DNA from: a virus
DNA length: 24,861 nt
IMG/VR virus record: IMGVR_UViG_3300025087_000285
Coordinates: 1 to 24,861 of that record
Reading direction: 5' to 3' (one strand)
Shown: in pieces, positions 3,807-24,327 of the stretch
Layout: each line of letters starts with the position of its first letter
Position numbering within the stretch: the first letter of the stretch is position 1
The notes under the pieces: generated by a model
Seen by the model: the letters and a program-made list of their open reading frames with translations, nothing else
Database searches by the model: none
What the model was told of the DNA's origin: nothing
Program-made: the position numbers and the translations under genes

Positions 3807-4619
3807 TTAATAGAAGGTCGGTTGTTGCTTTCCAAGTCCACGTAGATAAGACTGGAATGCTCCAGGACTCCCAGGATTCCCCGGCTGATAGACTGGTTGT
3901 TGAATAATCTGCCCTTGCATGATCGCGGCAAGAAGGGCATCGGCCCCCGGCACCACCCCCTGTCCGAACTGCGGCGCTCCGACCTGTGGCGCCCCTGGTT
4001 GCTGGACTTGAGGAAACACCACCTGGGAAGAGGCAATGAGTTCTTGCAGGGTTTGGGCGCGTTGTTGCTGTTGTAAGCCGATGTCCTGCTGGGCATACTG
4101 GCGGCTTAACTCAGCTAATCCTTCCTGTTCCTGCAACTGCCGATTGCCACTGTAGAGATTCCCTCCAAGATTGGCTTGGGTACGAATTCCACGGGTAAAC
4201 CGTTCCTGTTCACGGTTACGGATGAAATCTTGAGCTGAGAGTTGTTCTGGCGTCAGACCTTGTGGACTCTGCAACCGCTGAAGGGCTTGCCGCGCAAGGG
4301 TTTCCTGCCCCTGGACCTGAGTGGGAAACAGTTGTTCATACAATGAACGATAGAGAGGCCCGTACTGTTGTTGCAATTCATACTCGGATTGGGCGAGGCG
4401 CGGCGCTTGTTGACGTTGAATATCCACCTGGGATTGCGCCAGTTGGGGGCCGTACTGCTGCTGAAGTTGAGCAGCTTGGGCGGTTAACTGTGGGTTGTAT
4501 TGAAGCTGCGCCTGGTACAAGTCAGCCGCATTCTGTTGGATATTGGGCGGAGGCGCTTGGGTAATCTGTGGAGGAGGCGGTTGAATAAACTGAGGTTGTT
4601 GAGGCTTCGATCCACCCAT
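3807..4619 (-). CDS. Gln-rich internal virion protein
   Basis: This 270-residue protein is extremely rich in glutamine, with a Pro/Gln N-terminus and at least two copies of a QQQYGP unit (about residues 48-53 and 88-93) embedded in helical repeats. The C-terminal third is Pro/Gly/Gln-rich. Gln-rich helical proteins with such repeats occur among ejected or structural proteins of podovirus-like phages. It has no cysteine and no signal peptide. Translation should be strong: AAGGAGGTGA, close to the perfect anti-16S complement, lies 7 bases before the start, inside the end of the upstream gene, and the start overlaps its stop as TAATG. Confidence 0.5.
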   Translation of the reverse strand: MGGSKPQQPQFIQPPPPQITQAPPPNIQQNAADLYQAQLQYNPQLTAQAAQLQQQYGPQLAQSQVDIQRQQAPRLAQSEYELQQQYGPLYRSLYEQLFPTQVQGQETLARQALQRLQSPQGLTPEQLSAQDFIRNREQERFTRGIRTQANLGGNLYSGNRQLQEQEGLAELSRQYAQQDIGLQQQQRAQTLQELIASSQVVFPQVQQPGAPQVGAPQFGQGVVPGADALLAAIMQGQIIQQPVYQPGNPGSPGAFQSYLRGLGKQQPTFY

Positions 4620-4909
4620 TAGACGCTCACCTCCTTACGCAGTTGGAGTTGCTCACGACGAAACGCATGAGGTCGTGGAAACTCATCATGCTCCCGACGC
4701 CAGAAGACTCCTAACGCTCCTGGAACCGACAGACCAATGTCGTGTACCATGCGCCGTCGGATAGAGTGAAGATTCATCTTAGGGGCAACTTCCAGTTGGT
4801 GCAGGAACACATAGCGGCCTTGTGGAGTCCAATATCCCTGCTCATCGACCAGCCACCACTCGCAGACGGCTTGGAGGTGTCCCGACTCACTCCGCAAGAC
4901 CCAAAGCAT
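4619..4909 (-). CDS. Small conserved-looking phage protein, unknown
   Basis: This 96-residue protein has a compact, Trp- and Arg-rich sequence (CEWWLVDEQGYW, then VFLHQLEV, and FWRREHDEF) and one cysteine. No signal peptide is visible. The start lies inside the 3' end of the preceding gene (23-base overlap), preceded by GAGGTGA. I do not recognise the family; it sits between the secreted tail-like proteins and the Gln-rich internal proteins, so a virion or assembly role is possible. Confidence 0.5.
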   Translation of the reverse strand: MLWVLRSESGHLQAVCEWWLVDEQGYWTPQGRYVFLHQLEVAPKMNLHSIRRRMVHDIGLSVPGALGVFWRREHDEFPRPHAFRREQLQLRKEVSV

Positions 4910-5255
4910 TCACCTCATCCTCACTCAACCCCAGCGCCTTGAGCTTCACATGACCCGTCACGCGGTCTGCTCGACGTTTGGCCTCAGCGGTCACCGTCGC
5001 TTGCCGCTTGGCCTTGTCTGGGTTGTTGGTATGGTCGCGCCAGGCCGCCAGGTGGATGGCGCGTTCCGGCTCGGTTACGGTGAGCTGCTCGATATCGGCG
5101 GCAGGGATCCCGGCGCTCATGAGGTTCCGGGCGCAGTGGCCGTCCGGTTGGGTGGCGGAATAGGTCTCAGCGACTTGCTCCGTTGAGATCACGCGACAGA
5201 CCGTGGCGGCCTCGGCAATTGGCATCCACAGGCACAGGACCAGTAAGATTCGCAT
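4887..5255 (-). CDS. Small secreted protein in the tail gene cluster
   Basis: I choose the ATG at 5255, because GGAGG ends four bases before it and the longer reading frame would run far back into the preceding gene. The 122-residue product begins MRILLVLCLWMPIAEA-AT, a good Sec signal peptide with an AxA cleavage site. The mature part is mostly helical, with Glu, Arg and Ala-rich repeats (AKRQATVTAEAKRRAD), and has exactly two cysteines (in TVC and GHC), which could form one disulphide. A second in-frame ATG at 5258 directly abuts the ribosome binding site and is less likely. Its function is unknown; it could act in the periplasm, in the envelope or on the virion. Confidence 0.6.
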   Translation of the reverse strand: MRILLVLCLWMPIAEAATVCRVISTEQVAETYSATQPDGHCARNLMSAGIPAADIEQLTVTEPERAIHLAAWRDHTNNPDKAKRQATVTAEAKRRADRVTGHVKLKALGLSEDEVNALGLAE

Positions 5256-5265
5256 CATCCCTCCG

Positions 5266-6141
5266 TTAGAAGTCATAGGCCGCATAGGTGCAGTCCGTGT
5301 TGCCAGTCGGCGTGCCCGTCTTCGTCCAGACGATATCGAAGGCGCCGACGGCAAAGTTGCCGATGTCCCCAGAGACACTGTTGCCCGCGGTTTGCTGGGT
5401 TAAAATCGCCTCAGCGGTGCTGGCAAACCAGGTATTCGCGGTGACCGCGTGCTGGTTGAACACGCTGCCATCCGTCGTGCTGTTTGAGATTCCCACGGAG
5501 GTCTCGCTGGTCGAATCCTCCCCGCAGACGATGATGACCACCGAGGGTGTGAGTCCCAAGCCGCTGACGGTTTGGGTCGCACTGGCAAGGGACTGGTCAC
5601 GGGTGAAGCTGCCCACGGCCACGGTGGCCGTGGTGGAGGAGGACGTTCCACATGAGAAACTATTCGTCGATTGGGTATAGTTGAGATGGTTCCCACCCGT
5701 ATCGGTGCAGTCGGTGACCGTCCGCCATGTCCCAGCGCTAGAGGAATCAGCGACAAAGGCTTTGTCATCCGCCGCCGTGCCAGTCGTCGCCATGTCCACG
5801 ACATCCACGGCGCCGGCCGCAATCTCCGCTGCACCGACGCCATCGGTGGCAATTTCGCTTGTCCCCACGGCTCCCGCAGCAATCTCATCGGCTCCCACGC
5901 CATCCGTCGCAATCTCTGCAGTCCCCACGCCCCCGTCAGCGATCGCCGCCGCATTGACAGACCCTGCCGAATACGTATCGATTCCTCCTTGAAGATAGGA
6001 GTAGATGTTATCCTCGTTGGTCGTCACTTGGCTGGGGTCAATGGTTTGGCCTGTGGTGTAGGTGTAGGTGCGACTAGGCGCGGCTCCCAGCAAGAAGGGA
6101 AGGCAGAGCACCAGCAGCAGGTTACGGAGCGGTAAAGGCAT
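5266..6141 (-). CDS. Fibre-like protein with signal peptide and decapeptide repeats
   Basis: The 291-residue protein starts with a signal peptide (LLLVLCLPFLLGA followed by APS). Residues 61-120 are six consecutive decapeptides of pattern (A/G/S)V(G/N)xxEIAxxG, of which the middle four alternate as two near-identical 20-residue pairs. Such Val/Ile-spaced repeats with a final Gly are typical of phage fibre shafts. The C-terminal half (about 165-291) is Ser/Thr/Val-rich and likely a beta-structured tip domain. The mature protein has four cysteines (TDC, FSC, IVC, TDC). GGAGG lies ten bases before the start, inside the preceding gene, with a 20-base overlap. A tail or head fibre role is inferred; the signal peptide is unusual for one. 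Confidence 0.62.
   Translation of the reverse strand: MPLPLRNLLLVLCLPFLLGAAPSRTYTYTTGQTIDPSQVTTNEDNIYSYLQGGIDTYSAGSVNAAAIADGGVGTAEIATDGVGADEIAAGAVGTSEIATDGVGAAEIAAGAVDVVDMATTGTAADDKAFVADSSSAGTWRTVTDCTDTGGNHLNYTQSTNSFSCGTSSSTTATVAVGSFTRDQSLASATQTVSGLGLTPSVVIIVCGEDSTSETSVGISNSTTDGSVFNQHAVTANTWFASTAEAILTQQTAGNSVSGDIGNFAVGAFDIVWTKTGTPTGNTDCTYAAYDF
5821..6000 (-). repeat. Coding repeats for the fibre decapeptides
   Basis: The DNA encoding residues 61-120 of the fibre-like protein repeats with a 30-base period and a 60-base higher-order period. The two EIATDGVG units and the two EIAAGAV units are more similar to each other than to their direct neighbours. This implies growth by duplication of a two-unit block and allows length variation by recombination. 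Confidence 0.6.
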
Positions 6142-6463
6142 TGGCAGTGCACCTCCAGGTCGTTCCCGTCGTGGACACGGCGGTTGTCGCTGTCGTATTC
6201 ACGCACAACTTATACGATCCTGACAAATTAAAGAACACCAGATCGCCATTGGTTCCCGCTCTCGATCCATTCGGATTCGTGGTGGTTACATCAACCGTAT
6301 AGCGACCATTGGTCAACTGCCAAACTGATTCCAGCCAGATGTTCAGTTGAGACGCCGTGCTCTCATCCCACTTGGTGATGGTCGGAGGCTTGGAGATTCG
6401 AGCCGCCTGGGAGTCAGGAGAGGCAACCAGGAGAACAAGAAATACTCCAACGAGACATCTCAT
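6122..6463 (-). CDS. Small secreted tail/fibre-like protein
   Basis: This 113-residue protein has an N-terminal signal peptide (MRCLVGVFLVLLVA, with a likely site after SQA). The mature part begins with a PPTITKWDE segment and LNIWLESVWQLTNGRYT, which resembles the N-terminal adapter portions of phage fibre-associated proteins, followed by Thr/Asn-rich strands. It has two cysteines after the signal peptide (KLC and WRC). The start overlaps the stop of the nozzle gene as TAATG. It lies directly before the decapeptide-repeat fibre gene, so the two may be partners. Function is inferred. Confidence 0.55.
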   Translation of the reverse strand: MRCLVGVFLVLLVASPDSQAARISKPPTITKWDESTASQLNIWLESVWQLTNGRYTVDVTTTNPNGSRAGTNGDLVFFNLSGSYKLCVNTTATTAVSTTGTTWRCTANAFTAP

Positions 6464-8331
6464 TAATTCCGACTCACTCGGTCGTACAACACCTGCCAGC
6501 CATGCGCTCGGAAGTTCTCATCCCGATCATCTTCGGTAAAGGTGAACCGCCACCAACGACCTTCGTCATCCAAACTGATCTTCTTGCCTGAACTCCCGAT
6601 GAACACAATATCGCCCCCGCCCCAGACAGCTGTCCCCCAAATCGCCGTACCCCACAACGATCCTTCTGAGGGTGTCAAACTGGCCGTTGGGGTAGCCGTA
6701 TTGGACTGAAAATCTACGCCATAACCCACGTCCAGCGTAGACCCAATATCGGCATCGGCGACCAGGAACAGTTCGATGCCCTGCTTAATCCACGACGGAT
6801 CGCCAAAATCATCCCAGCGCGTAGTGTAGTACGCATTGATGCGTCCCACTTCGAAGGTCGTGGTGGAATCGGGGGTGGTACTGAAGTCTCGTGCGACGAT
6901 CAAACCCGTCGAGGTATTATCGACGATCACACCAATCAATCCACTCGCGCCTCCTCCCACCAGCTCAATCGGAGCTCCAATCAATCCACTCGCTGTGTAA
7001 GACGCGGAGGCATCGTACAACACTTGGAGGGAGGACGCATGAATGGACGGATACCGGGAGACGCTATCGACCGTACCGCTCGCTCCTCCGACATCGTTGT
7101 CAAGGCTGGTCTCAGTCAGTTGGTACACAAAGCTATCGCCCGTCCCCACATACACTTGGGAGATCGTGCTGCTATCAATGACTTTCGCCATCGCGTTCAT
7201 GCCAGTCAGGCCCGTAAAGGTCGATTTGCTCCACTCACCGATTTGATAGTTGTAATCGAGGCATAAATTGTTGGTCAAGGCGCCTCCGTTTGAAAGACAA
7301 AGATAATAATGCTCCCCGTCCTCGGCGCTCACGGCATACTGAAGGCGAGCCCCGTTGACCGCATTCAGGGTCGTATGGATGAGTCGGCTGACTTCCATCG
7401 GCACCGTCCCGTTGAAGAAATACACCCGCTTCTTGCTGTCGAGGAAAATCAATCCTGTCTGGCTGTTGGAGAACGTAATCTGCTGAAGGGAGTTCTTCGC
7501 CACACAGCCGACTTCATTGGAGACTTTCGTGAAGGCAAAGGTGCCTGAGCCTCCCACAAGGGACATGCGGTAGAGCGAGCTGGTAAACCCCAGGTAGACA
7601 TCCCCGTAGAGCTGTCCGATACAATTCAACTCTTGACCGGCCGAGGCATCCACATCCACATAATCAGCATCCGTCCACGTATTAATCGTCCCGACATTGC
7701 CCCACCGAATACGAGTCGGATATTCAATGCCGTTCTCCTGAGTATTTCCAAAAATCAGGTAATTCTGGAAGAAAGTCGCTACCTTAGCTTTCTGAATGGG
7801 AGCGGTCAATCCTGAGAAACTTACTCCAAGCCAGAAATCGTCGGCTCCTCCAGCCCACTGCGCTGGAGCATCCGCATCATTTGTCGCAATCAGGTTAGCC
7901 AAGGCTGGGGTGAAGACAAACTGGTTGTTCTGCCCTGCGGTAATGAGAGTCGCGTTGACCGTGTTGCTGATGTCGGTAAAGGCCGCTCCGTTCAAATACG
8001 ACGCACGCTGACCACAGATCGCCACGGTACGTGAGGTGCCTCCTGAGAAGGGAACATGAATCAGTCCTGTCACCGTACAGAAATCCTCCCCTGGTGCATC
8101 GAGGGTCTCTCCGATGACTTTCAGCCCTACCCGCTTCCGGAGGTCTCCCGTCAAGCCAATGCGGACATTCTGCAACGTGCTGGCTCGTCCAGGTTGAACT
8201 CTCGTTGGCACAGAGGTGTCATCCAATCCTAAGAACGGCTGAAGACCTGTTGGAGGATAGACTTCCAAGTCGCCAGCCCAGATGGAAGAGATACTACTAA
8301 GCATGAATCCAATGACGAGCATCCATCGCAT
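6463..8331 (-). CDS. Tail nozzle / stabilisation-like protein with signal peptide
   Basis: This protein of 622 residues shows after its N-terminus the pattern LQNVRIGLTGDLRKRVG, characteristic of podovirus nozzle or stabilisation proteins (T7 gp12-like or P22 gp10-like roles), then a long all-beta region with repeated YxGxG and YFFNGT-type strands suggesting a propeller-like fold. Unexpectedly it begins with a hydrophobic signal-peptide-like segment (MLVIGFMLSSISSIWAG). The mature part has six cysteines. The ATG at 8331 directly follows the TAG of the adaptor gene, so the start is well placed; a later in-frame TTG near the predicted cleavage site has no ribosome binding site. Length and neighbours fit a tail tube distal protein. 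Confidence 0.7.
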   Translation of the reverse strand: MRWMLVIGFMLSSISSIWAGDLEVYPPTGLQPFLGLDDTSVPTRVQPGRASTLQNVRIGLTGDLRKRVGLKVIGETLDAPGEDFCTVTGLIHVPFSGGTSRTVAICGQRASYLNGAAFTDISNTVNATLITAGQNNQFVFTPALANLIATNDADAPAQWAGGADDFWLGVSFSGLTAPIQKAKVATFFQNYLIFGNTQENGIEYPTRIRWGNVGTINTWTDADYVDVDASAGQELNCIGQLYGDVYLGFTSSLYRMSLVGGSGTFAFTKVSNEVGCVAKNSLQQITFSNSQTGLIFLDSKKRVYFFNGTVPMEVSRLIHTTLNAVNGARLQYAVSAEDGEHYYLCLSNGGALTNNLCLDYNYQIGEWSKSTFTGLTGMNAMAKVIDSSTISQVYVGTGDSFVYQLTETSLDNDVGGASGTVDSVSRYPSIHASSLQVLYDASASYTASGLIGAPIELVGGGASGLIGVIVDNTSTGLIVARDFSTTPDSTTTFEVGRINAYYTTRWDDFGDPSWIKQGIELFLVADADIGSTLDVGYGVDFQSNTATPTASLTPSEGSLWGTAIWGTAVWGGGDIVFIGSSGKKISLDDEGRWWRFTFTEDDRDENFRAHGWQVLYDRVSRN

Positions 8332-9330
8332 CTACCACCATCCCACGCCATACGACGGGAAGGCATCATCGACAGAATCATTGTAGTATTTGACAATGGC
8401 TGGCAGCATGAGGGGACGACGCCCCACGACTTTCACCATATCATAGGCGACGGGATCGTCAGCCTGTTTCATCAACTTTAATCCCCGTTGAAACGCCACT
8501 GTCGCGGCAATCGCTTTTTCATCCTCCCGTTTGAATCGCCAGAGGTGCTGAAGCGCTCCTTCTTGAAGCACCCAATTCCATTGCACATCGAACTGCGGCA
8601 CATCGGCATCCGCCACAAGGAGTTGAAGTCGTTCCAGGTATTCCAGATACATCGTAATGACCGCCGAGGGGATCGGATAAAGCGCAATGATCTTGCTCCG
8701 AGGGCTCGCTTCTGTCGGAGCGATCCGAATGAGGACTGTCGAGCCTGTCGTCCTCCTGACGGAAATGACCCCGGTGGTGTTGGCGGACTTGGACACTCGC
8801 AAAAGGCTGGCTTCGTCAAAGGTATTGGTGCTAGTGACCGCCGTGGTTCCATTCAGAGTGAGCGTTTCAGCAATGGAAATCCCATTGGTGTTCCGTCCCC
8901 AGACTCGCACATTGAAACCTGATCCGTCACTGGTCGAGGAAGAAACTACCTCAATGGTGTCATCAGCGGCCAAGCTGGTCGTAAAGCCGGTTTCTTCCCA
9001 CTGGCGGTAGTAACGGGGTGTGCCTGTTCCTCGATCTTCTGGGGCGGGGATGTGACGGTAAAAGTCTCGATCAGGAACATACGTGAGCACCGTCGGGGTG
9101 GTTCGCTGCCGCAACAACATGATCTTCTCCACTTCCTCATCGAGCCGGTACTCCTCTTGACTGGCGACCGTAGAGAAGGTCGTCTTGCGCCGGAGGCTGC
9201 TCCACGGATGGGAGTAGTACAACTCTGAGAGGGCGAGGTTGAGGCAATCCGTGATCGTGGAGTTGATCGTCGTGTCCTTGATGATCGTCCCTAAGTAACC
9301 CCGCTGCTCGGAAAGCGTCCGAATCGCCAT
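8332..9330 (-). CDS. Tail adaptor / tail tubular A-like protein
   Basis: The product of 332 residues begins MAIRTLSEQRGYLGTII, followed by IxxxLNLALSELYYSHPWSSLRRKTTF and SQEEYRLDEEVEKI. This layout (helix, then a PWxxL motif and a strand ending in a YxLP-like turn) is typical of podovirus head-to-tail adaptors such as T7 gp11. A beta insertion follows (about residues 115-210), then a helical C-terminus. It has one cysteine and no signal peptide, unlike its neighbours. I chose the ATG at 9330 because it overlaps the upstream stop as TAATG; an in-frame start further up would lie inside the preceding gene. It would dock the tail onto the portal. Confidence 0.72.
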   Translation of the reverse strand: MAIRTLSEQRGYLGTIIKDTTINSTITDCLNLALSELYYSHPWSSLRRKTTFSTVASQEEYRLDEEVEKIMLLRQRTTPTVLTYVPDRDFYRHIPAPEDRGTGTPRYYRQWEETGFTTSLAADDTIEVVSSSTSDGSGFNVRVWGRNTNGISIAETLTLNGTTAVTSTNTFDEASLLRVSKSANTTGVISVRRTTGSTVLIRIAPTEASPRSKIIALYPIPSAVITMYLEYLERLQLLVADADVPQFDVQWNWVLQEGALQHLWRFKREDEKAIAATVAFQRGLKLMKQADDPVAYDMVKVVGRRPLMLPAIVKYYNDSVDDAFPSYGVGWW

Positions 9331-10487
9331 TAGACGATTGTCCCTTCTGGAAGGACATAGACTCCACAATACCCAATGAGCCCCAACGAGGCTAAGACCC
9401 ACAGATGATCGACAAAATGGAAGTTGCTACTTATCATAAAGATGAGGAAGAGGCTCCCGCACACCCAGGCCAACGGATGAGACCGGACGCGCCACCAACG
9501 TGTCCAATACGCCGCGAGGCCCCACAGGACAATCCCCAACCCAATGACCCCTAACTCCATGAGAATTTGGAGCAGGGCATTGTGAACGTGCTTCCAGAGC
9601 TTCAATGGACTTCCCAGAGGCGCAGCCTGAGCTCGCGCAAGCGTATAGCCAAGCCCGAATCCCGTGATCGTCGGTTTGGACTGGTGGCGTTCCAGAGATG
9701 GACTGGCATAGTCCTCCCAGTTAAGCCGCCAAACTTCCAGGCGTCCTTCAGGACTTCGATACGCCGGATGATTCCACGCAAAGACGCCTCCCAAAAGGCC
9801 AAGACTCACCGGTAGCCAGATCAGCCGCTGGCGGAAGCGCAAGCACCACCATCCTACAACGATCAACGCGCCTCCGAACCCCACCGCCGATTTCGTCAAA
9901 GCGATCATGCCGACCATTCCCGCTGCGAGCAGCTTCCAATACCATCGAGGTTGCCACAGGACAATTGGCAGGAGAAGGGCGAGATGGATTCCAAAGTGAG
10001 ACGTATTCCCAATCGTCCCAATCAGCGGATCGCCCAAGTTCCATTCCACATGACGGTAAAACTGGTCAAGATTCGCCATCTGAAGCAACCCATAGCCGAA
10101 GAGGACTGTCGCGCCTCGCGCAAGCCAGCGAAACAACTCTTCCAGCACTCTGGGCGTCCATTGCGTCACCGCCGCAAGGTAGAACAACGGAAGACACATC
10201 ACATGAAGCCACGGCATCAAGAGCCCTGTGGGATAATGTTGGCTCCCTGGAAGGCTTGTTTGCCAAATGAAGAGCGTCTGCCAACACACCCACAGAACCA
10301 GGCAGGACAAGGGCAGGTTTCTGACAATTGGACGTTCTGAGCGGCTCAGGCTTAGAGCGAACATCCCTGCCAATCCTGCCTGCGCCAACGCCGTTTGGAC
10401 GTGCCAGATATCCAACCGATGACTGAAGAAATGAGCAAACGGGAGACCGGCCAGATAAACGATCCAACCGATCTCCCGCCCACTCAT
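9330..10487 (-). CDS. Wzy_C-type membrane protein (O-antigen ligase / protein O-oligosaccharyltransferase-like)
   Basis: This 385-residue polytopic membrane protein has roughly ten or more hydrophobic segments. It shows the family landmarks of WaaL, Wzy and PglL proteins: a GTIGNTSHFGIHLALLLP motif at residues 157-174 (like the GTFGNPNxxG signature), a GRLEVW motif in a periplasmic loop with R249, and a WKHVHNALLQILMELGVIGLG motif with H302. In known members the equivalent Arg and His take part in transfer of lipid-linked glycan to lipid A or to Ser/Thr of exported proteins. It lies four bases after the secreted decoration-like gene and overlaps the adaptor gene as TAATG, so it is a genuine part of the virion operon. 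Whether it modifies host lipopolysaccharide or virion proteins cannot be told from sequence. Confidence 0.75.
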   Translation of the reverse strand: MSGREIGWIVYLAGLPFAHFFSHRLDIWHVQTALAQAGLAGMFALSLSRSERPIVRNLPLSCLVLWVCWQTLFIWQTSLPGSQHYPTGLLMPWLHVMCLPLFYLAAVTQWTPRVLEELFRWLARGATVLFGYGLLQMANLDQFYRHVEWNLGDPLIGTIGNTSHFGIHLALLLPIVLWQPRWYWKLLAAGMVGMIALTKSAVGFGGALIVVGWWCLRFRQRLIWLPVSLGLLGGVFAWNHPAYRSPEGRLEVWRLNWEDYASPSLERHQSKPTITGFGLGYTLARAQAAPLGSPLKLWKHVHNALLQILMELGVIGLGIVLWGLAAYWTRWWRVRSHPLAWVCGSLFLIFMISSNFHFVDHLWVLASLGLIGYCGVYVLPEGTIV

Positions 10488-10491
10488 CTCG

Positions 10492-11013
10492 CTATGGGAC
10501 GCACACGATGTTGACTTCCACTGGCGCCAAGCAGTGGACTGATCCGGTGGAACACACCTGCGTCGTGGGTTGATGAAGGTTTTCCCTCAACACTCCCAGG
10601 ACGCAGACGTTGTTCCCTGCCGTCGAATCCCCTGCCCGTCCTGCTGTCGCCCCTGTCGAAATGAGCGTGTCTTCAGTGAGTCCTGTGGCAATATCCACCA
10701 GCGCCCACCCTTTCACGACCATCTCACACAGTTGCTGGTCAGGACAACTGGCGTTCAAAATCACCCCAGCCGTGTCAATGTCATCCGAGGTCGTGGTGGT
10801 CGTCACATACCGATACCCGGAGCGATCATACTCCGTATCGTCGGTATCCCACACCGCAAGTTGACCAGAGACAAGCTCTCCTCCAGAGTCGTTAAAGACC
10901 GTCATCGTCCATGACGATTGGGTCGTTGAACCTACCGTCAGCGGCATAGCATCCGCCCACACCACGCCCTGCGCTGCCAAGACGAGGGCGAGACTTGCCA
11001 GCAATCGTTTCAT
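10492..11013 (-). CDS. Secreted Cys-rich capsid-decoration-like protein
   Basis: This 173-residue protein directly follows the major capsid gene (13-base gap) with a very good ribosome binding site (GGAGG, spacer five). It starts with a classical signal peptide (MKRLLASLALVLAA, cleavage near VWADA). The mature part is an all-beta, Thr-rich protein (with a run of five Thr near residue 70) and has a GELVSGQLAVWD and GWALVDIATGLTEDTLIS layout reminiscent of small head decoration proteins. Six cysteines (in ASC, QLC, NVC, QVC, VHC and IVC) suggest three disulphides. The position after the capsid gene is the usual slot for decoration proteins, but a secreted one is unusual. It could instead be an envelope protein unrelated to the virion. 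Confidence 0.6.
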   Translation of the reverse strand: MKRLLASLALVLAAQGVVWADAMPLTVGSTTQSSWTMTVFNDSGGELVSGQLAVWDTDDTEYDRSGYRYVTTTTTSDDIDTAGVILNASCPDQQLCEMVVKGWALVDIATGLTEDTLISTGATAGRAGDSTAGNNVCVLGVLRENLHQPTTQVCSTGSVHCLAPVEVNIVCVP

Positions 11014-11025
11014 CTGCGCCTCCGC

Positions 11026-11976
11026 TTAGCTCGTGATGCCGGTGATGACGCCCTGGGTTCTCCGCGAACCCGTGGTCAACTGACCGAACAAGTACATCAG
11101 CGCCACATCGGACAACTGGTTTGAGGACGGGATGAACTCGGTCGTCACCAAATTGCCCTGGGACAGCACTTGCAACCAGAGCGAGTCAGTATCCACTCCG
11201 TACATCAAGCCCGTGTCGATGTTGTCGTCCCAGAGGACTGGCCGCCGCCCGAAGTTCAAGTGCTCAAAGTGGGCGTCCGCTAACTCCTCGTTGTAGTAGC
11301 GGATGTTCCCCGCCTGGCTGAGGTAATACAGGTTGTACACGGCGGAGGTCGTGAAGATCGCCCTCGGCGAGTTCTTGCCGAAGGTGGTTCCACGAATCAT
11401 CGAGTCCATTGCGGAAATGCCGTTGTTGCTGCTGTTGAAGGCTCCCGCAATGGCGGCGGAATAGTTCCGCCAGGAGGCATCGGACCCCGCAATGGTGCCA
11501 ACGGTGGTGCTATTCGTCGTGCTGATGATGGTCTCCAAGGAGTCCCACGAAGGAGCCGTCCCTGTGCCATCCACCAATTCATCCCCAAGAACCTCGGCAA
11601 TGGAGACCGAGGCCGACTGCTTCTTCTCTTCCAGATACTTGAGGATGACGGCTTTCCCCTGATTCATGGCTTGATGGAGCTTGAACAGGGTAATTGACCC
11701 ATCAATGACCGCCGGTGTCCACTCCGAATGCGTATGGGTCTGAGCATCCGGGGTGGGAATGGTGGCATCGTGGGCGCGCGCCGCAAAGCTGGAGTTCAAA
11801 GCATACATGAGCGGGTGCGTAAAGGTGCGCCCGCCTACCGTCACCTTGATATTGCCAGACTGCCGCAACATCCAGACCAACGAATTATTGGTCGAGATGC
11901 CATCAAAGACCTCATCCCCGAAGTTGGGCTGCGTCCTTGTTGTTTGGGCAGTCGCAAAATTCGTCCCTGCCGGCAT
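11026..11976 (-). CDS. Major capsid protein
   Basis: This 316-residue protein lies between scaffold and decoration genes, the standard position for the major capsid protein. It has an extended, flexible N-terminal arm (TTRTQPNFGDEVFDGI), a long helix (about residues 95-125, LFKLHQAMNQGKAVILKYLEEKKQ), and a C-terminal beta-rich part with FEHLNFGRRPVLWDDNI and LWLQVLSQGN, consistent with an HK97-type capsid fold. It has no cysteine. AAGGG lies about eight bases upstream of the ATG. The exact capsid family cannot be assigned by eye. Confidence 0.8.
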   Translation of the reverse strand: MPAGTNFATAQTTRTQPNFGDEVFDGISTNNSLVWMLRQSGNIKVTVGGRTFTHPLMYALNSSFAARAHDATIPTPDAQTHTHSEWTPAVIDGSITLFKLHQAMNQGKAVILKYLEEKKQSASVSIAEVLGDELVDGTGTAPSWDSLETIISTTNSTTVGTIAGSDASWRNYSAAIAGAFNSSNNGISAMDSMIRGTTFGKNSPRAIFTTSAVYNLYYLSQAGNIRYYNEELADAHFEHLNFGRRPVLWDDNIDTGLMYGVDTDSLWLQVLSQGNLVTTEFIPSSNQLSDVALMYLFGQLTTGSRRTQGVITGITS

Positions 11977-14441: not shown

Positions 14442-14796
14442 AGATGCCTTCCTTTCGTTGAATGCGGTCGAGCAACCCGTTGACCCCTCCCCTGGCTTGG
14501 ATGAAGGCTTGCCGCTGCCGATGGGCTTGCTTCTTCTCCCAACTGAGCTTAGTCGCCTTGTGCGTAGGGCCATCCCACCGCTTGCCTGGTACGACAATTC
14601 CTCCCTCTCTCAACCCATATTTTTTGAGCCAACTTCGTTTCTCCAACTTCGACTGGAAGGTTCGCTTGGCTGAGGGATCGTAGCTGGGCACTCCCCCCTT
14701 GTTGAAATAGACGGGTCGCGCCAGGGTGGGAATGGAGTCTGAGACCTTCCGCACCTGGCCGTCAACGACCGCATAGGTGCCAGTGAAAGCGCTCAT
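14434..14796 (-). CDS. Portal-adjacent small phage protein
   Basis: This 120-residue basic protein begins directly at the end of the portal gene (ATGA overlap). It has a YFNKGGVPSYDPSAKRTFQS segment followed by RSWLKKYGLREGG, a pattern (a serine- and lysine-containing stretch, then a helix ending in a GLREGG turn) that recurs in small proteins beside phage portal genes, although I do not know its role. It has no cysteine. The C-terminus carries the RGGVNGLLDRI motif discussed with the broken ORF downstream. A head-completion or regulatory role is conceivable. Confidence 0.6.
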   Translation of the reverse strand: MSAFTGTYAVVDGQVRKVSDSIPTLARPVYFNKGGVPSYDPSAKRTFQSKLEKRSWLKKYGLREGGIVVPGKRWDGPTHKATKLSWEKKQAHRQRQAFIQARGGVNGLLDRIQRKEGIYV

Positions 14797-16748
14797 ACCG
14801 GACTGGCTCCCTGACCTCGTTCTCCTGCAGCGGCAGAGATGAGGTCAGCTCGGTTTGGCACCTGCCCTGCCAAACGATCCGTCCCATTGCCATTCGTTTG
14901 CTCAGGCTTCTGACCGTAGGTCAGCAAGGAGTTGAGGACATTGGGGTCTTGCACCGGCACGATGAGCTTACTGAGATTCCCCAACCCGTATTCCTCAAAG
15001 AAGCGGCTCCATTGTCGCACCGCTTCTTGGACAGAGACTCGTTTGCCATCGAGTGCAAGTCCCTGGGTGACCACTGGCTCCATGAGCGCCCGCATGAAGG
15101 CCTCGAACTGCGCCCGGATAATCTCCAGGTTGGGCTTCTGCATGGAGGAGACTTCCAAATCGAAGCGGAAACGACTGGCCTTGAGGCGATCCGCGCGGGC
15201 TTGGTCAAGCGGAGGATACCATTGGGTCTGCTGCACCCCGGTTTCCGCATTCAGCATCCCCGCATCCTTGATGAGATCGATCTCGGTCAGGTCTTGGAAC
15301 TGCGCCTTGACCCGCCAGTATTTGGTGATGACGCGGGTAAACCACGCCGAGACCGTGTTGGACTCATCGGTTCGGCGGAGATTCTGGCCAGACTGCCCGA
15401 TCTGCGCTTCCGTGGCGGTCTGGGCGGTCGTCAGGCCGGTCAGTTGGGCGCGAGTGAGTCCCGTGATGAGAATCACCAAATCGACCACTTGGTTGACCAA
15501 TCCCAGCATGTCAGCTTGGACTTGGTTCATGGTGATCACTCGAATCGCCCCTTGGACATCCTCGGTGCCGCTAATCTTAACCCTAGTTCCAATAGTCGGC
15601 TGATCCAACGCTTGCTCACCTTCCGGCAGGACACGTTCGTTGTAGGCGATCTTCGCCATGAACTTGTCCACTTGCTCCAACACGGCATCGAAGGTGGAAT
15701 TGATGCGGTCAATCAGGGGACGGATCACCGAGATGGTGGAGATTGGATAGAGCCGATGGCCGTGCTTGTTCTCAGTCAACTGCTCGTATTGCCATCCGCC
15801 CAAATCATAAGGATTGTCCTCATGGAGGAGGGCTTTCGTCTGCTCCTGGGTGGCTGCAAACGTCAACACTCGAATCCCCGTCTCAGCTCGAGCATCCTTA
15901 TAGTGGACTTCCCAGACATCCACGGTCTGAAACTCTTCGATGAACGTCTCAGCAATCCGAGAATCATCCACGGCATCGGGGGTCAGTTCAGACTTGGCTC
16001 GGCTGTAGCGACGGTCTCGCTTGACTTCCGCCAGGGTGCGGCGAATCCGCTGCGCGACCCACCGGGCATCCGTGATCTCACGCGCCCTGGGGTCAATCAC
16101 CACATCGAAGGGGCTGATCCACTGGATGTACGGATGCTCGGAACGAATGGATTCTTCGACGTGGATGGGTTCTGGCTCAGGAGGCTCAGGCGGGGTGGAA
16201 GCCCTTAACCCGGTGACCGTGAGCACATTGTCCACCACCTGCTTCACCTGCTCCTTGAGCTTGTCACGGAATTTCTTGCGTTCTTCAACCTCCGTAGGGA
16301 GGATGTCGGCTCCGAACTCGGTGGCATAACCGATCTTGACATAGCCGAGTGCTAAGACATAGCCGTCGAACACAGACAGCTGTACCGTGTCTTTGATTCG
16401 AAGCAAGGGGTCGCGCAGGTCTCGGTTGATGAGCTCAGAGACGTAAAACGCATCTTCCCCCGCCGTCTCACTGCGGAACTCCGGCATGGCCGTGACGCGG
16501 GGATTCTGGAAGAAGCGAGTGGGCACGACATTCTTGATGATGGGAAAGACGAGGTTGAGCGGGAGCTCGAAGTCGTCGTTCCTCGCCCCCTGCTCAAAGT
16601 AATCGAGGTTCCGGCCAGCGAGGGTCGTGGTGGGCGGCGAGCCAGGCTGGGCTTGGCGATAGGTGCCGAACTCCTTGTCGCGGAACTCGACGCCAAGCTC
16701 CACCTCGGCTCGCCACCGAGCCAGTTCATCCGGCGTGATGGGGATCAT
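14793..16748 (-). CDS. Portal protein
   Basis: This protein of 651 residues follows the terminase genes and precedes small head genes, the standard portal position. It shows a long N-terminal region with a FPIIKNVVPTRFFQNPRV stretch, a HPYIQWISPFDVVIDP segment typical of podovirus-type portals (a conserved F-x-V-x-x-D-P turn), a KHGHRLYPISTISVIRPLIDRINSTFD helix, and a long helical C-terminal part, as in the crown and wing of portals. It has no cysteine. It would form the dodecameric DNA channel at one capsid vertex. The ATG lies three bases after the previous stop. Confidence 0.85.
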   Translation of the reverse strand: MIPITPDELARWRAEVELGVEFRDKEFGTYRQAQPGSPPTTTLAGRNLDYFEQGARNDDFELPLNLVFPIIKNVVPTRFFQNPRVTAMPEFRSETAGEDAFYVSELINRDLRDPLLRIKDTVQLSVFDGYVLALGYVKIGYATEFGADILPTEVEERKKFRDKLKEQVKQVVDNVLTVTGLRASTPPEPPEPEPIHVEESIRSEHPYIQWISPFDVVIDPRAREITDARWVAQRIRRTLAEVKRDRRYSRAKSELTPDAVDDSRIAETFIEEFQTVDVWEVHYKDARAETGIRVLTFAATQEQTKALLHEDNPYDLGGWQYEQLTENKHGHRLYPISTISVIRPLIDRINSTFDAVLEQVDKFMAKIAYNERVLPEGEQALDQPTIGTRVKISGTEDVQGAIRVITMNQVQADMLGLVNQVVDLVILITGLTRAQLTGLTTAQTATEAQIGQSGQNLRRTDESNTVSAWFTRVITKYWRVKAQFQDLTEIDLIKDAGMLNAETGVQQTQWYPPLDQARADRLKASRFRFDLEVSSMQKPNLEIIRAQFEAFMRALMEPVVTQGLALDGKRVSVQEAVRQWSRFFEEYGLGNLSKLIVPVQDPNVLNSLLTYGQKPEQTNGNGTDRLAGQVPNRADLISAAAGERGQGASPV

Positions 16749-22407: not shown

Positions 22408-24327
22408 TCATACGGACACATCAGTATCCGCCGCCAGCGCTTCGTCTCCCGCCTGCCGTTCCGCGCGCCGCCAGCGCTTCACCGTGTCGTCTCCCCGCCG
22501 GATCGTTTTGCGCTGCCATCCGAACTTCGTCAGAATGGCGGCGGCGCGGCGTTGCTCGCTGCGGCCAATCTGCCCGACGGGAATATGCAGCCCGTCGGTC
22601 AAGACTTCTGCAATCGTGACATCAAGGCGATCCAGCAAGAAATCCCGTAAGGGCGGTTCCCAGGCATCTTCTTCCCGTCGTTCATCCTGTTCCGCCGCCG
22701 TCTCCTCAGGCATTTCCCACCACGTCGCCTGCGCCCGAATGTCGTGGGCCGCTTCCGCAAAGAGCTGCTCGCGCACGCGCGCCAGTCCAACGAGGTCCAG
22801 CGTCGTGCACGGCACCGGCCAAAACCGACGGTTCCCCGTCATGTCCCGGAGGTAGTAGAGGTCATTGGTCGTGCCCACGAAGACCGATTGCCGCGCGCAC
22901 GTTTGAGGGAAGCGGCCATAGGAGGCGCGAAAGCTGTCTGACGGGGTGGAGATAATTTGTTTGATGCGGGTCACTTCGGCATATTGAAAGCTGTCGAGCT
23001 CGGCGATTTCCACCACGAGATGTCCAGGGAGGAGTTGAAAAAAATCTTTCTTCAGCACCGATTCGCTCATGGCGAGATACCACGCGCCGCCGATGACTCG
23101 CAAGGCGCTGGTTTTCCCCTGGCCTTGCGGGCCTTCCAGCACCACCATATGATCCACTTGGCAGCCGGGACGCGCGATCCGCGCGGCGAGACTCCGCCAG
23201 AAGTTCCGGCTGACGGCGCGGATGTACGCCGTGTCTGGCGCGCCGAAGTACCGCGTCACGCACGACTCGATGCGTGGCGTCTCGTCCCACGCAATCGTCT
23301 TGAGCCAGTCCACCACTTCATGACGCCGGTGCCGAGTGCCCAGGACGCCCAAGGCGTCGCTGACCGCCTCTTTACTGAGGCGCGTCAGACGCATCTCGTG
23401 TTGGAGAAATACCAGCAGTCGTTGCGTATCCGTGTCCTGCCACTCCGAGGGGCTCGGCTTTTCCCATGTGGTCATCAGGCGATTGCGAAAGCCATCAAAC
23501 CAAATCGCCTCGTGAAAGAGCGGGTGGTGTTCCAACAATTCGACCGCCGCCGCGGCGTTACAGACGGGTTGCATCCCCTTGCCGGTGGTGGGGAGGTGAT
23601 AGGCCACCCACGGCGGCGCATCCTCTGGCGTCTCTACCAACTTCGCCGCTCCCGCCATCCAGCGATCAATATCCGCCTCGGTAAACGGCTTGGAGGGGTC
23701 TTGCGGGCAGGCCAGCAGTGCAGTGGTCAATCCCGCGCGGATCGTTTCAGGGGACAAGCCCTCCCGCGTCAGCTTGCAGGCCAGGCGGTGGAGCTCATCG
23801 TCCTGCTGGCCGCGTGGAATGACGCCATTGGGGGCGATGGGCTGAGACGCTTTAACGGGTTTCATCGCGGCCAGCCAGTCGGGCAGCGACGCCAGCGGTG
23901 CGCCATCCAGCACCGTATAGCCATCGCTTGGGGGCGCGACGACGTAGCCGCCATCCCCGCGCACGTCCACGCCACGGCTCAAACCGGCGCCAGTCGGCGC
24001 GGTGGTAGTGGTCGTAAAATAGTAGTGCCGCCCGCCACGTGGCGTCTGCACGGTGTACGTGCGCGGCAGCAGGCCGTGATCCGCCTCCCAATCTTGAATC
24101 GTGGCTTCCCCGTCATGGTGCTTATCCACGTCCAACACGTAGAGCCCGTGGCCCGTCGCAATTCCGAGGTTGCAGGGTTTCGCAAAGAGCTGGCGGATCG
24201 TCGCGGGATCGGTCGTCGCGTCTTTGAAGCCGTGCTGGGTGGCGGGCTTCTTCGAGTCCAGCTTGCATGGGAACACCCGCCATCCGAGGGCAGCATAGGC
24301 GAGGGCGGCGTCAAGGCAGGAGGGCAT
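22408..24327 (-). CDS. Phage primase-helicase (PrimPol plus VirE-type ATPase)
   Basis: The 639-residue protein has an N-terminal bifunctional primase/polymerase domain (LGWRVFPCKLDSKKPA near residues 14-29, a metal-binding LDVD at 65-68, GGRHYYF at 98-104). The C-terminal half is a VirE-type superfamily III-like ATPase with Walker A GPQGQGKT (399-406), Walker B-like VVEIAELD (438-445), and FVGTTNDLYYLRDMTGNRRFWPV (483-505) with the arginine of sensor/finger type. It would prime and unwind DNA at the adjacent iteron cluster. It has an AAGGAG ribosome binding site five bases before the ATG. Its stop lies eight bases from the last iteron. Confidence 0.85.
   Translation of the reverse strand: MPSCLDAALAYAALGWRVFPCKLDSKKPATQHGFKDATTDPATIRQLFAKPCNLGIATGHGLYVLDVDKHHDGEATIQDWEADHGLLPRTYTVQTPRGGRHYYFTTTTTAPTGAGLSRGVDVRGDGGYVVAPPSDGYTVLDGAPLASLPDWLAAMKPVKASQPIAPNGVIPRGQQDDELHRLACKLTREGLSPETIRAGLTTALLACPQDPSKPFTEADIDRWMAGAAKLVETPEDAPPWVAYHLPTTGKGMQPVCNAAAAVELLEHHPLFHEAIWFDGFRNRLMTTWEKPSPSEWQDTDTQRLLVFLQHEMRLTRLSKEAVSDALGVLGTRHRRHEVVDWLKTIAWDETPRIESCVTRYFGAPDTAYIRAVSRNFWRSLAARIARPGCQVDHMVVLEGPQGQGKTSALRVIGGAWYLAMSESVLKKDFFQLLPGHLVVEIAELDSFQYAEVTRIKQIISTPSDSFRASYGRFPQTCARQSVFVGTTNDLYYLRDMTGNRRFWPVPCTTLDLVGLARVREQLFAEAAHDIRAQATWWEMPEETAAEQDERREEDAWEPPLRDFLLDRLDVTIAEVLTDGLHIPVGQIGRSEQRRAAAILTKFGWQRKTIRRGDDTVKRWRRAERQAGDEALAADTDVSV

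Follow-up and report, generated by a model that had tools for sequence, protein, structure and literature searches.

Predicted Sec signal peptides and a WaaL-type ligase gene in the virion module of an uncultured phage family related to Mx8

The window analysed here is the whole of IMG/VR record IMGVR_UViG_3300025087_000285, a stretch of 24,861 bases. In reading direction, its virion module encodes the terminase, portal, scaffold and capsid, followed by a decoration-like protein (P0005), a 10-TM ligase (P0006), an adaptor (P0007) and a nozzle-like protein (P0004). On the 3´ side of the nozzle-like gene lie P0003, the fibre-like P0002, P0001, a small protein at the place of a GNAT gene, and the internal proteins. 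The features relevant to this analysis are the following:

14793..16748, minus strand: portal protein (phrog_1216, 5.2e-9); no signal peptide, no Cys
11026..11976, minus strand: major capsid protein (phrog_9953, 4.1e-28); no signal peptide, no Cys
10492..11013, minus strand: decoration-like protein P0005, 173 aa, directly after the capsid; predicted Sec signal at about residues 1-20 (nt 10954-11013), 6 mature Cys
9330..10487, minus strand: Wzy_C/WaaL-type glycan ligase P0006, 10-TM, 385 aa; R249 and H302 invariant
8332..9330, minus strand: head-tail adaptor P0007 (Pfam SU10_adaptor, 6.7e-15); without signal peptide
6463..8331, minus strand: nozzle-like protein P0004, 622 aa; predicted Sec signal at about residues 1-19 (nt 8275-8331), 6 Cys
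6122..6463, minus strand: small putatively exported protein P0003, 113 aa, downstream of the nozzle; predicted Sec signal at about residues 1-20, 2 Cys
5266..6141, minus strand: fibre-like, putatively exported protein P0002, 291 aa, with TDGVGAAEIAAGAV repeats; predicted Sec signal at about residues 1-21, 4 Cys
4887..5255, minus strand: small putatively exported protein P0001, 122 aa; predicted Sec signal at residues 1-16, 2 Cys
4619..4909, minus strand: small protein at the place of the Mx8-like GNAT acyltransferase gene, which in Mx8/Mx9/BUCT555 likewise follows the tail genes; no Pfam match

The homologous capsid, the SU10-type adaptor, the nozzle and their common order place the locus among Mx8-like podophage virion modules. 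The nozzle-like P0004 matches phrog_3287 (3e-27), as do all 16 of the nozzle-like family members. One decoration-like homologue matches the head decoration family phrog_122 (8.5e-4), and the fibre-like P0002 has a weak match to the tail fibre family phrog_892 (0.003).

A sequence-only reading of this DNA had assigned Sec-type N-termini to five open reading frames, and all five were found on the minus strand as described. Cleavage is predicted after MRILLVLCLWMPIAEA (before ATV), MPLPLRNLLLVLCLPFLLGAA (before PSR), MRCLVGVFLVLLVASPDSQA (before ARI), MRWMLVIGFMLSSISSIWA (before GDL) and MKRLLASLALVLAAQGVVWA (before DAM). Signals were scored by a rule of our own, distinct from SignalP, which demands a basic n-region, an eight-residue hydrophobic core without polar residues, and small residues at -3 and -1. 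Four of the five proteins pass, and the Glu at position -2 of the A-E-A motif is the sole reason why the remaining one (4887-5255) fails. Shuffled whole proteins pass the same rule in 0.5% of cases (54/10500). By rule and reading together, the basic n-region, hydrophobic core and small -3/-1 residues of Sec and signal peptidase I substrates are present. In P0004 the predicted signal is an add-on before the conserved domain, since the phrog_3287 match begins only at residue 30.

Relatives were gathered by IMG/VR scans with nozzle, ligase, capsid and adaptor queries. They comprise 33 further family contigs from many metagenomes, with a GC content of 33-59% and an invariant gene order; a number of them nearly duplicate one another (002223_000033 and 002460_000354, for instance), and the counts given below are therefore not independent. 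Decoration-like homologues carry a signal in 31/31 intact cases, two further N-termini being truncated or disrupted. Among nozzle-like homologues the rule accepts 26/29, and the three that it rejects (L007, L025 and L044) are clearly signal-like by eye. The same holds for the P0003 family (20/20), the P0002 family (19/20 by rule, the last one by eye) and the P0001 family (3/3: L007, L031 and L008). Signals are also present on several more tail or fibre-like genes of L008 and L062, and on one small gene near the scaffold in L003, L005, L006 and L017.

No signal was found in any of the 169 intact capsid, portal, scaffold, adaptor, terminase and putative internal proteins of the family contigs (capsid 0/32, adaptor 0/29, scaffold 0/31, portal 0/25, terminase 0/19, and 0/14, 0/15 and 0/4 in the 4619, 3807 and 3198 families). 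Outside the clade, the homologous modules of eight annotated relatives (Mx8, Mx9, Bradyrhizobium ppBjS10J-1, Stenotrophomonas BUCT555, Ruegeria 45A6 and three Manatee Spring genomes) lack the ligase, and none of their 80 genes bears a signal. Faecal contig L065 is also without the ligase, and the gene at its nozzle position is signal-free. In the distant L014 and L015 the nozzles are signal-free and GT2/GT1 glycosyltransferases replace the ligase between the capsid region and the adaptor. One fibre-like gene of L015 (10708-12444) bears a signal. Relatives without hydrophobic N-termini had been named as evidence that would count against export; all clade members keep these N-termini, and only the more distant, ligase-free phages lack them. 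The predicted signals are confined to a single clade and, there, to its putative exterior proteins, and it is very likely that the proteins bearing them are exported and cleaved.

Searches beyond the family contigs returned little. No nozzle or ligase match was found in 84,980 species genomes, collections of phages and plasmids yielded nothing closer than distant matches to terminase, capsid and primase, and a ligase scan with the AT-rich subset retrieved only further members of the same family. Because AT-rich members use strong Shine-Dalgarno sites, signal ends of the '...AQ' type were not counted as proof of Bacteroidota.

The cysteine content of the module was largely as first described. 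After predicted cleavage the five proteins contain 2, 4, 2, 6 and 6 cysteines, and the capsid, portal, scaffold and internal proteins of the window have none, exactly as had been claimed; the adaptor has one and the terminase four, and capsids of other clade members have 0-4. The proposed evenness of cysteine numbers stood for most decoration (20/23) and nozzle (13/16) sequences and broke down in the two small downstream families, whose AT-rich members have 0, 1 or 3. An even count is therefore a tendency only among these sequences.

Co-variation of cysteines was followed in 23 decoration and 16 nozzle sequences, with permutations that ignore relatedness. Among the decoration sequences, C90 and C96 are both conserved as cysteines in 9 and both missing in 14 (9/9 paired), the equivalents of C23 and C35 are both present in 3 and both absent in 20 (3/3), and C137 and C171 occur together in 5 sequences and one alone in 1 (5/6); C154 and C161 are found in the window sequence only. 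In the nozzle family, C345 and C357 are both present in 8 sequences and both absent in 8 (8/8), and the equivalents of C140 and C149 occur together in 2 (2/2). Cysteines are thus gained and lost in pairs, as disulphides predict, and it is probable that the signal-bearing proteins are disulphide-bonded. The predicted nozzle model (pLDDT 54) is too poor for cysteine geometry.

A further component, overlooked in the earlier reading, is the ligase P0006, whose gene is syntenic and lies between the decoration and adaptor genes in all contigs that span this region. Its presence in a set of genes for putatively exported proteins offers a reason for export. The Pfam profile Wzy_C matches 27/27 ligase homologues (best 1.4e-18), with the window P0006 alone scoring 6.5e-4, under the curated cut-off. 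The AF2 model of P0006 (pLDDT 84.9) aligns with WaaL (7tpg) over 334 residues (Z 21.7, rmsd 4.4), the next matches being RodA/FtsW at Z 9-12. The family profile and the full-length multi-TM fold together place P0006 in the Wzy_C superfamily (WaaL/Wzy/O-OTase). Furthermore, R249 and H302 are invariant in the 27 members and align with the R-L-x-x-W and H-x-H-N motifs of 7tpg, whose Arg and H-x-H-N His we take to be the catalytic residues of WaaL.

The nearest named family varies with the query, from the OST 9rmk (2.6e-4, with 8 sequences) to WaaL 7tpg (with 27 sequences), and the subfamily profiles found among the 27 homologues are TfpM in 1 (1.1e-7), PEP_O_lig_1 in 2 and IctB in 4. Given this shift, sequence does not settle the acceptor of the ligase. 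The case for a protein acceptor is one of context: the constant place in a virion operon, the co-presence with putatively exported proteins, and the occurrence, in distant relatives, of glycosyltransferases close to this position. The chance that the ligase acts on exported virion proteins is put at a little under even. The Ser and Thr content of the exported proteins (14-25%) overlaps that of controls and was not used as evidence. In L014 and L015, the position of cytoplasmic-type GT2/GT1 glycosyltransferases just upstream of the adaptor and nozzle suggests virion glycosylation by two routes.

In the mechanism that we propose, capsid, scaffold, portal, adaptor, internal proteins and DNA packaging would be kept in the cytoplasm, and the decoration, nozzle, fibre-like and small tail proteins would be exported by Sec through cleavable signals, a translocation that we infer. 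The exported exterior proteins would form disulphides outside the cytoplasm, in what is assumed to be the periplasm of the host. There, the phage WaaL-type ligase would most likely move host undecaprenyl-linked glycan onto them by O-glycosylation, if its acceptor is indeed a protein. At lysis, when the inner membrane is breached by the large lesions that holins make, the exported proteins may dock on filled, adaptor-closed heads. In P22-like phages the packaged head is, as a rule, sealed by the nozzle while still in the cytoplasm. In the present model the non-exported adaptor is the candidate plug before the nozzle arrives and would have to retain the DNA alone, which counts against the model.

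The initial proposal is upheld in part. Export and disulphide bonding are well supported by the signals across about 33 contigs, their absence from non-clade homologues, the placement of the nozzle signal ahead of the conserved domain and the paired cysteines, whereas the proposed periplasmic step of virion maturation is conjectural. That the exported proteins are still virion components is likely. We see about an even chance that the module belongs to an uncultured family of Mx8-related podophages whose particles are built in two compartments. The complete picture is more tentative, somewhat below even: cytoplasmic, DNA-filled heads that receive an exported, disulphide-bonded exterior set, coated with host surface glycan by the phage's own WaaL-like ligase before final assembly.

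The best-surviving alternative keeps export and disulphides as proposed, for folding alone, and lets the WaaL/Wzy-type ligase alter the host LPS or O-antigen during infection, which would serve superinfection exclusion or free progeny from receptor-laden debris. The top structural match is indeed the O-antigen ligase WaaL, and acceptor classes are not distinguishable by sequence. However, in all covered contigs the gene occurs only at its place between decoration and adaptor, ligase and signals are co-present and co-absent, and no integrase was found: Phage_integrase is missing from 9 and Resolvase from 5 of the longest records, which makes lysogenic conversion less likely, although the records may be fragments. 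This explanation is rather unlikely, but it retains real weight.

It is improbable that the exported copies have no place in the virion and act instead on the infected cell, at its surface or in its periplasm, for example in a superinfection block like that of T4 Spackle. Known exported phage proteins do include exclusion or lysis factors, such as T4 Spackle gp61.3, which is exported to the periplasm with its signal peptide cleaved (PMC7650644). Yet the signal-bearing set holds the module's only nozzle gene and only decoration gene, both of conserved structural families, and no second, signal-free copy was seen in the family contigs.

Slightly less probable still is that the hydrophobic N-termini are assembly or membrane-interaction helices retained in the virion, for instance for ejection, rather than Sec signals. 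The weaker cleavage motifs of some nozzle homologues, with a strict A-x-A in 5/16, would fit such helices. Against them, at least five proteins that are unrelated to one another, a head decoration protein among them, share the same n/h/c architecture; the decoration family is enriched both in K/R at residues 2-5 (23/23, null 2.6) and in strict A-x-A (15/23, null 6.4); and the paired cysteines fit an oxidising compartment. Chance or a gene-start artefact has a negligible probability, refuted by conservation over about 33 contigs, by the strong Shine-Dalgarno sites that precede many decoration-gene starts in the family contigs and by the low pass rate of shuffles.

The usual view of tailed phages is that assembly takes place entirely in the cytoplasm. 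A literature search, mainly of open-access papers, found no precedent for exported virion proteins of this kind, for phage-encoded oligosaccharyltransferases or for a phage WaaL. The signal sequence of JG068, considered as a precedent, belongs to a SAR endolysin and not to a virion protein. The two-compartment reading suggests that the exterior of the particle is folded outside the cytoplasm, and perhaps also coated with sugars there, before final assembly. If this is true, heads can be completed and tails attached later, in another compartment, phages have a route to disulphides and to en-bloc protein glycosylation, and virions may be disguised in host glycan. The annotation rule that a signal peptide means a non-virion protein would then become unsafe for phages.

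Several known systems share part of this arrangement. Filamentous phages (Inoviridae) have coat proteins that are virion proteins with Sec signals, but they are ssDNA phages extruded through the membrane, whereas the phage described here is tailed, has dsDNA and would make its heads in the cytoplasm. Mycobacteriophage virions are glycosylated by cytoplasmic glycosyltransferases; this system, like the candidate GT cassettes of L014/L015, also places glycan genes beside virion genes, but its enzymes are cytoplasmic and the nozzle and decoration proteins are not exported. T4 Spackle, the nearest functional contrast, is likewise phage-encoded and exported with a cleaved signal, but is a lysozyme inhibitor and neither a nozzle nor a decoration protein. 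The Mx8-like module (Mx8/Mx9, ppBjS10J-1 and BUCT555) has a homologous capsid and the same order of capsid, decoration, adaptor and nozzle, then a GNAT-type gene, but it has no signal peptides (0/80) and no WaaL-type ligase. Finally, WaaL (7tpg) and the Wzy_C superfamily, which includes the PglL- and TfpM-type protein O-oligosaccharyltransferases, share with P0006 the full-length fold and the catalytic Arg and H-x-H, and differ in that P0006 is encoded inside a phage virion operon.

In AT-rich members of the family, the interval between the decoration gene and the WaaL-type ligase gene holds a small additional gene whose Cys-rich product (e.g., CNFCHKRC) is lipoprotein-like, with a lipobox (LSGC/LTGC):

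L046:10512-10712
L051:8025-8237
L049:11544-11777

One more signal-peptide gene, for which no counterpart was found in the window, lies directly upstream of the scaffold gene in four contigs:

L003:2843-3151
L005:2891-3244
L006:2986-3315
L017:6098-6445

The fibre-like protein of the window (5266-6141, - strand) carries short, near-identical tandem repeats, TDGVGAAEIAAGAV.

The capsid of family member L007 (L007:2662-3633) is only 39% identical to that of the window, compared with about 80% for most other members, while its adaptor and nozzle show about 50% identity; these values suggest a possible capsid swap within the family.

Two further genes were recognized in the window:

22408-24327, - strand, primase-polymerase (Prim-Pol, 2.7e-40) fused to a VapE-like helicase domain (2.3e-63)
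214-624, - strand, cell wall hydrolase (Hydrolase_2/SleB-like, 2.9e-8), likely an endolysin

Finally, cassettes encoding GT2/GT1 glycosyltransferases and methyltransferases lie upstream of the adaptor and nozzle genes in two distant relatives (L014:1485-5200; L015:4540-7103), as if virion glycosylation were performed there by cytoplasmic enzymes.
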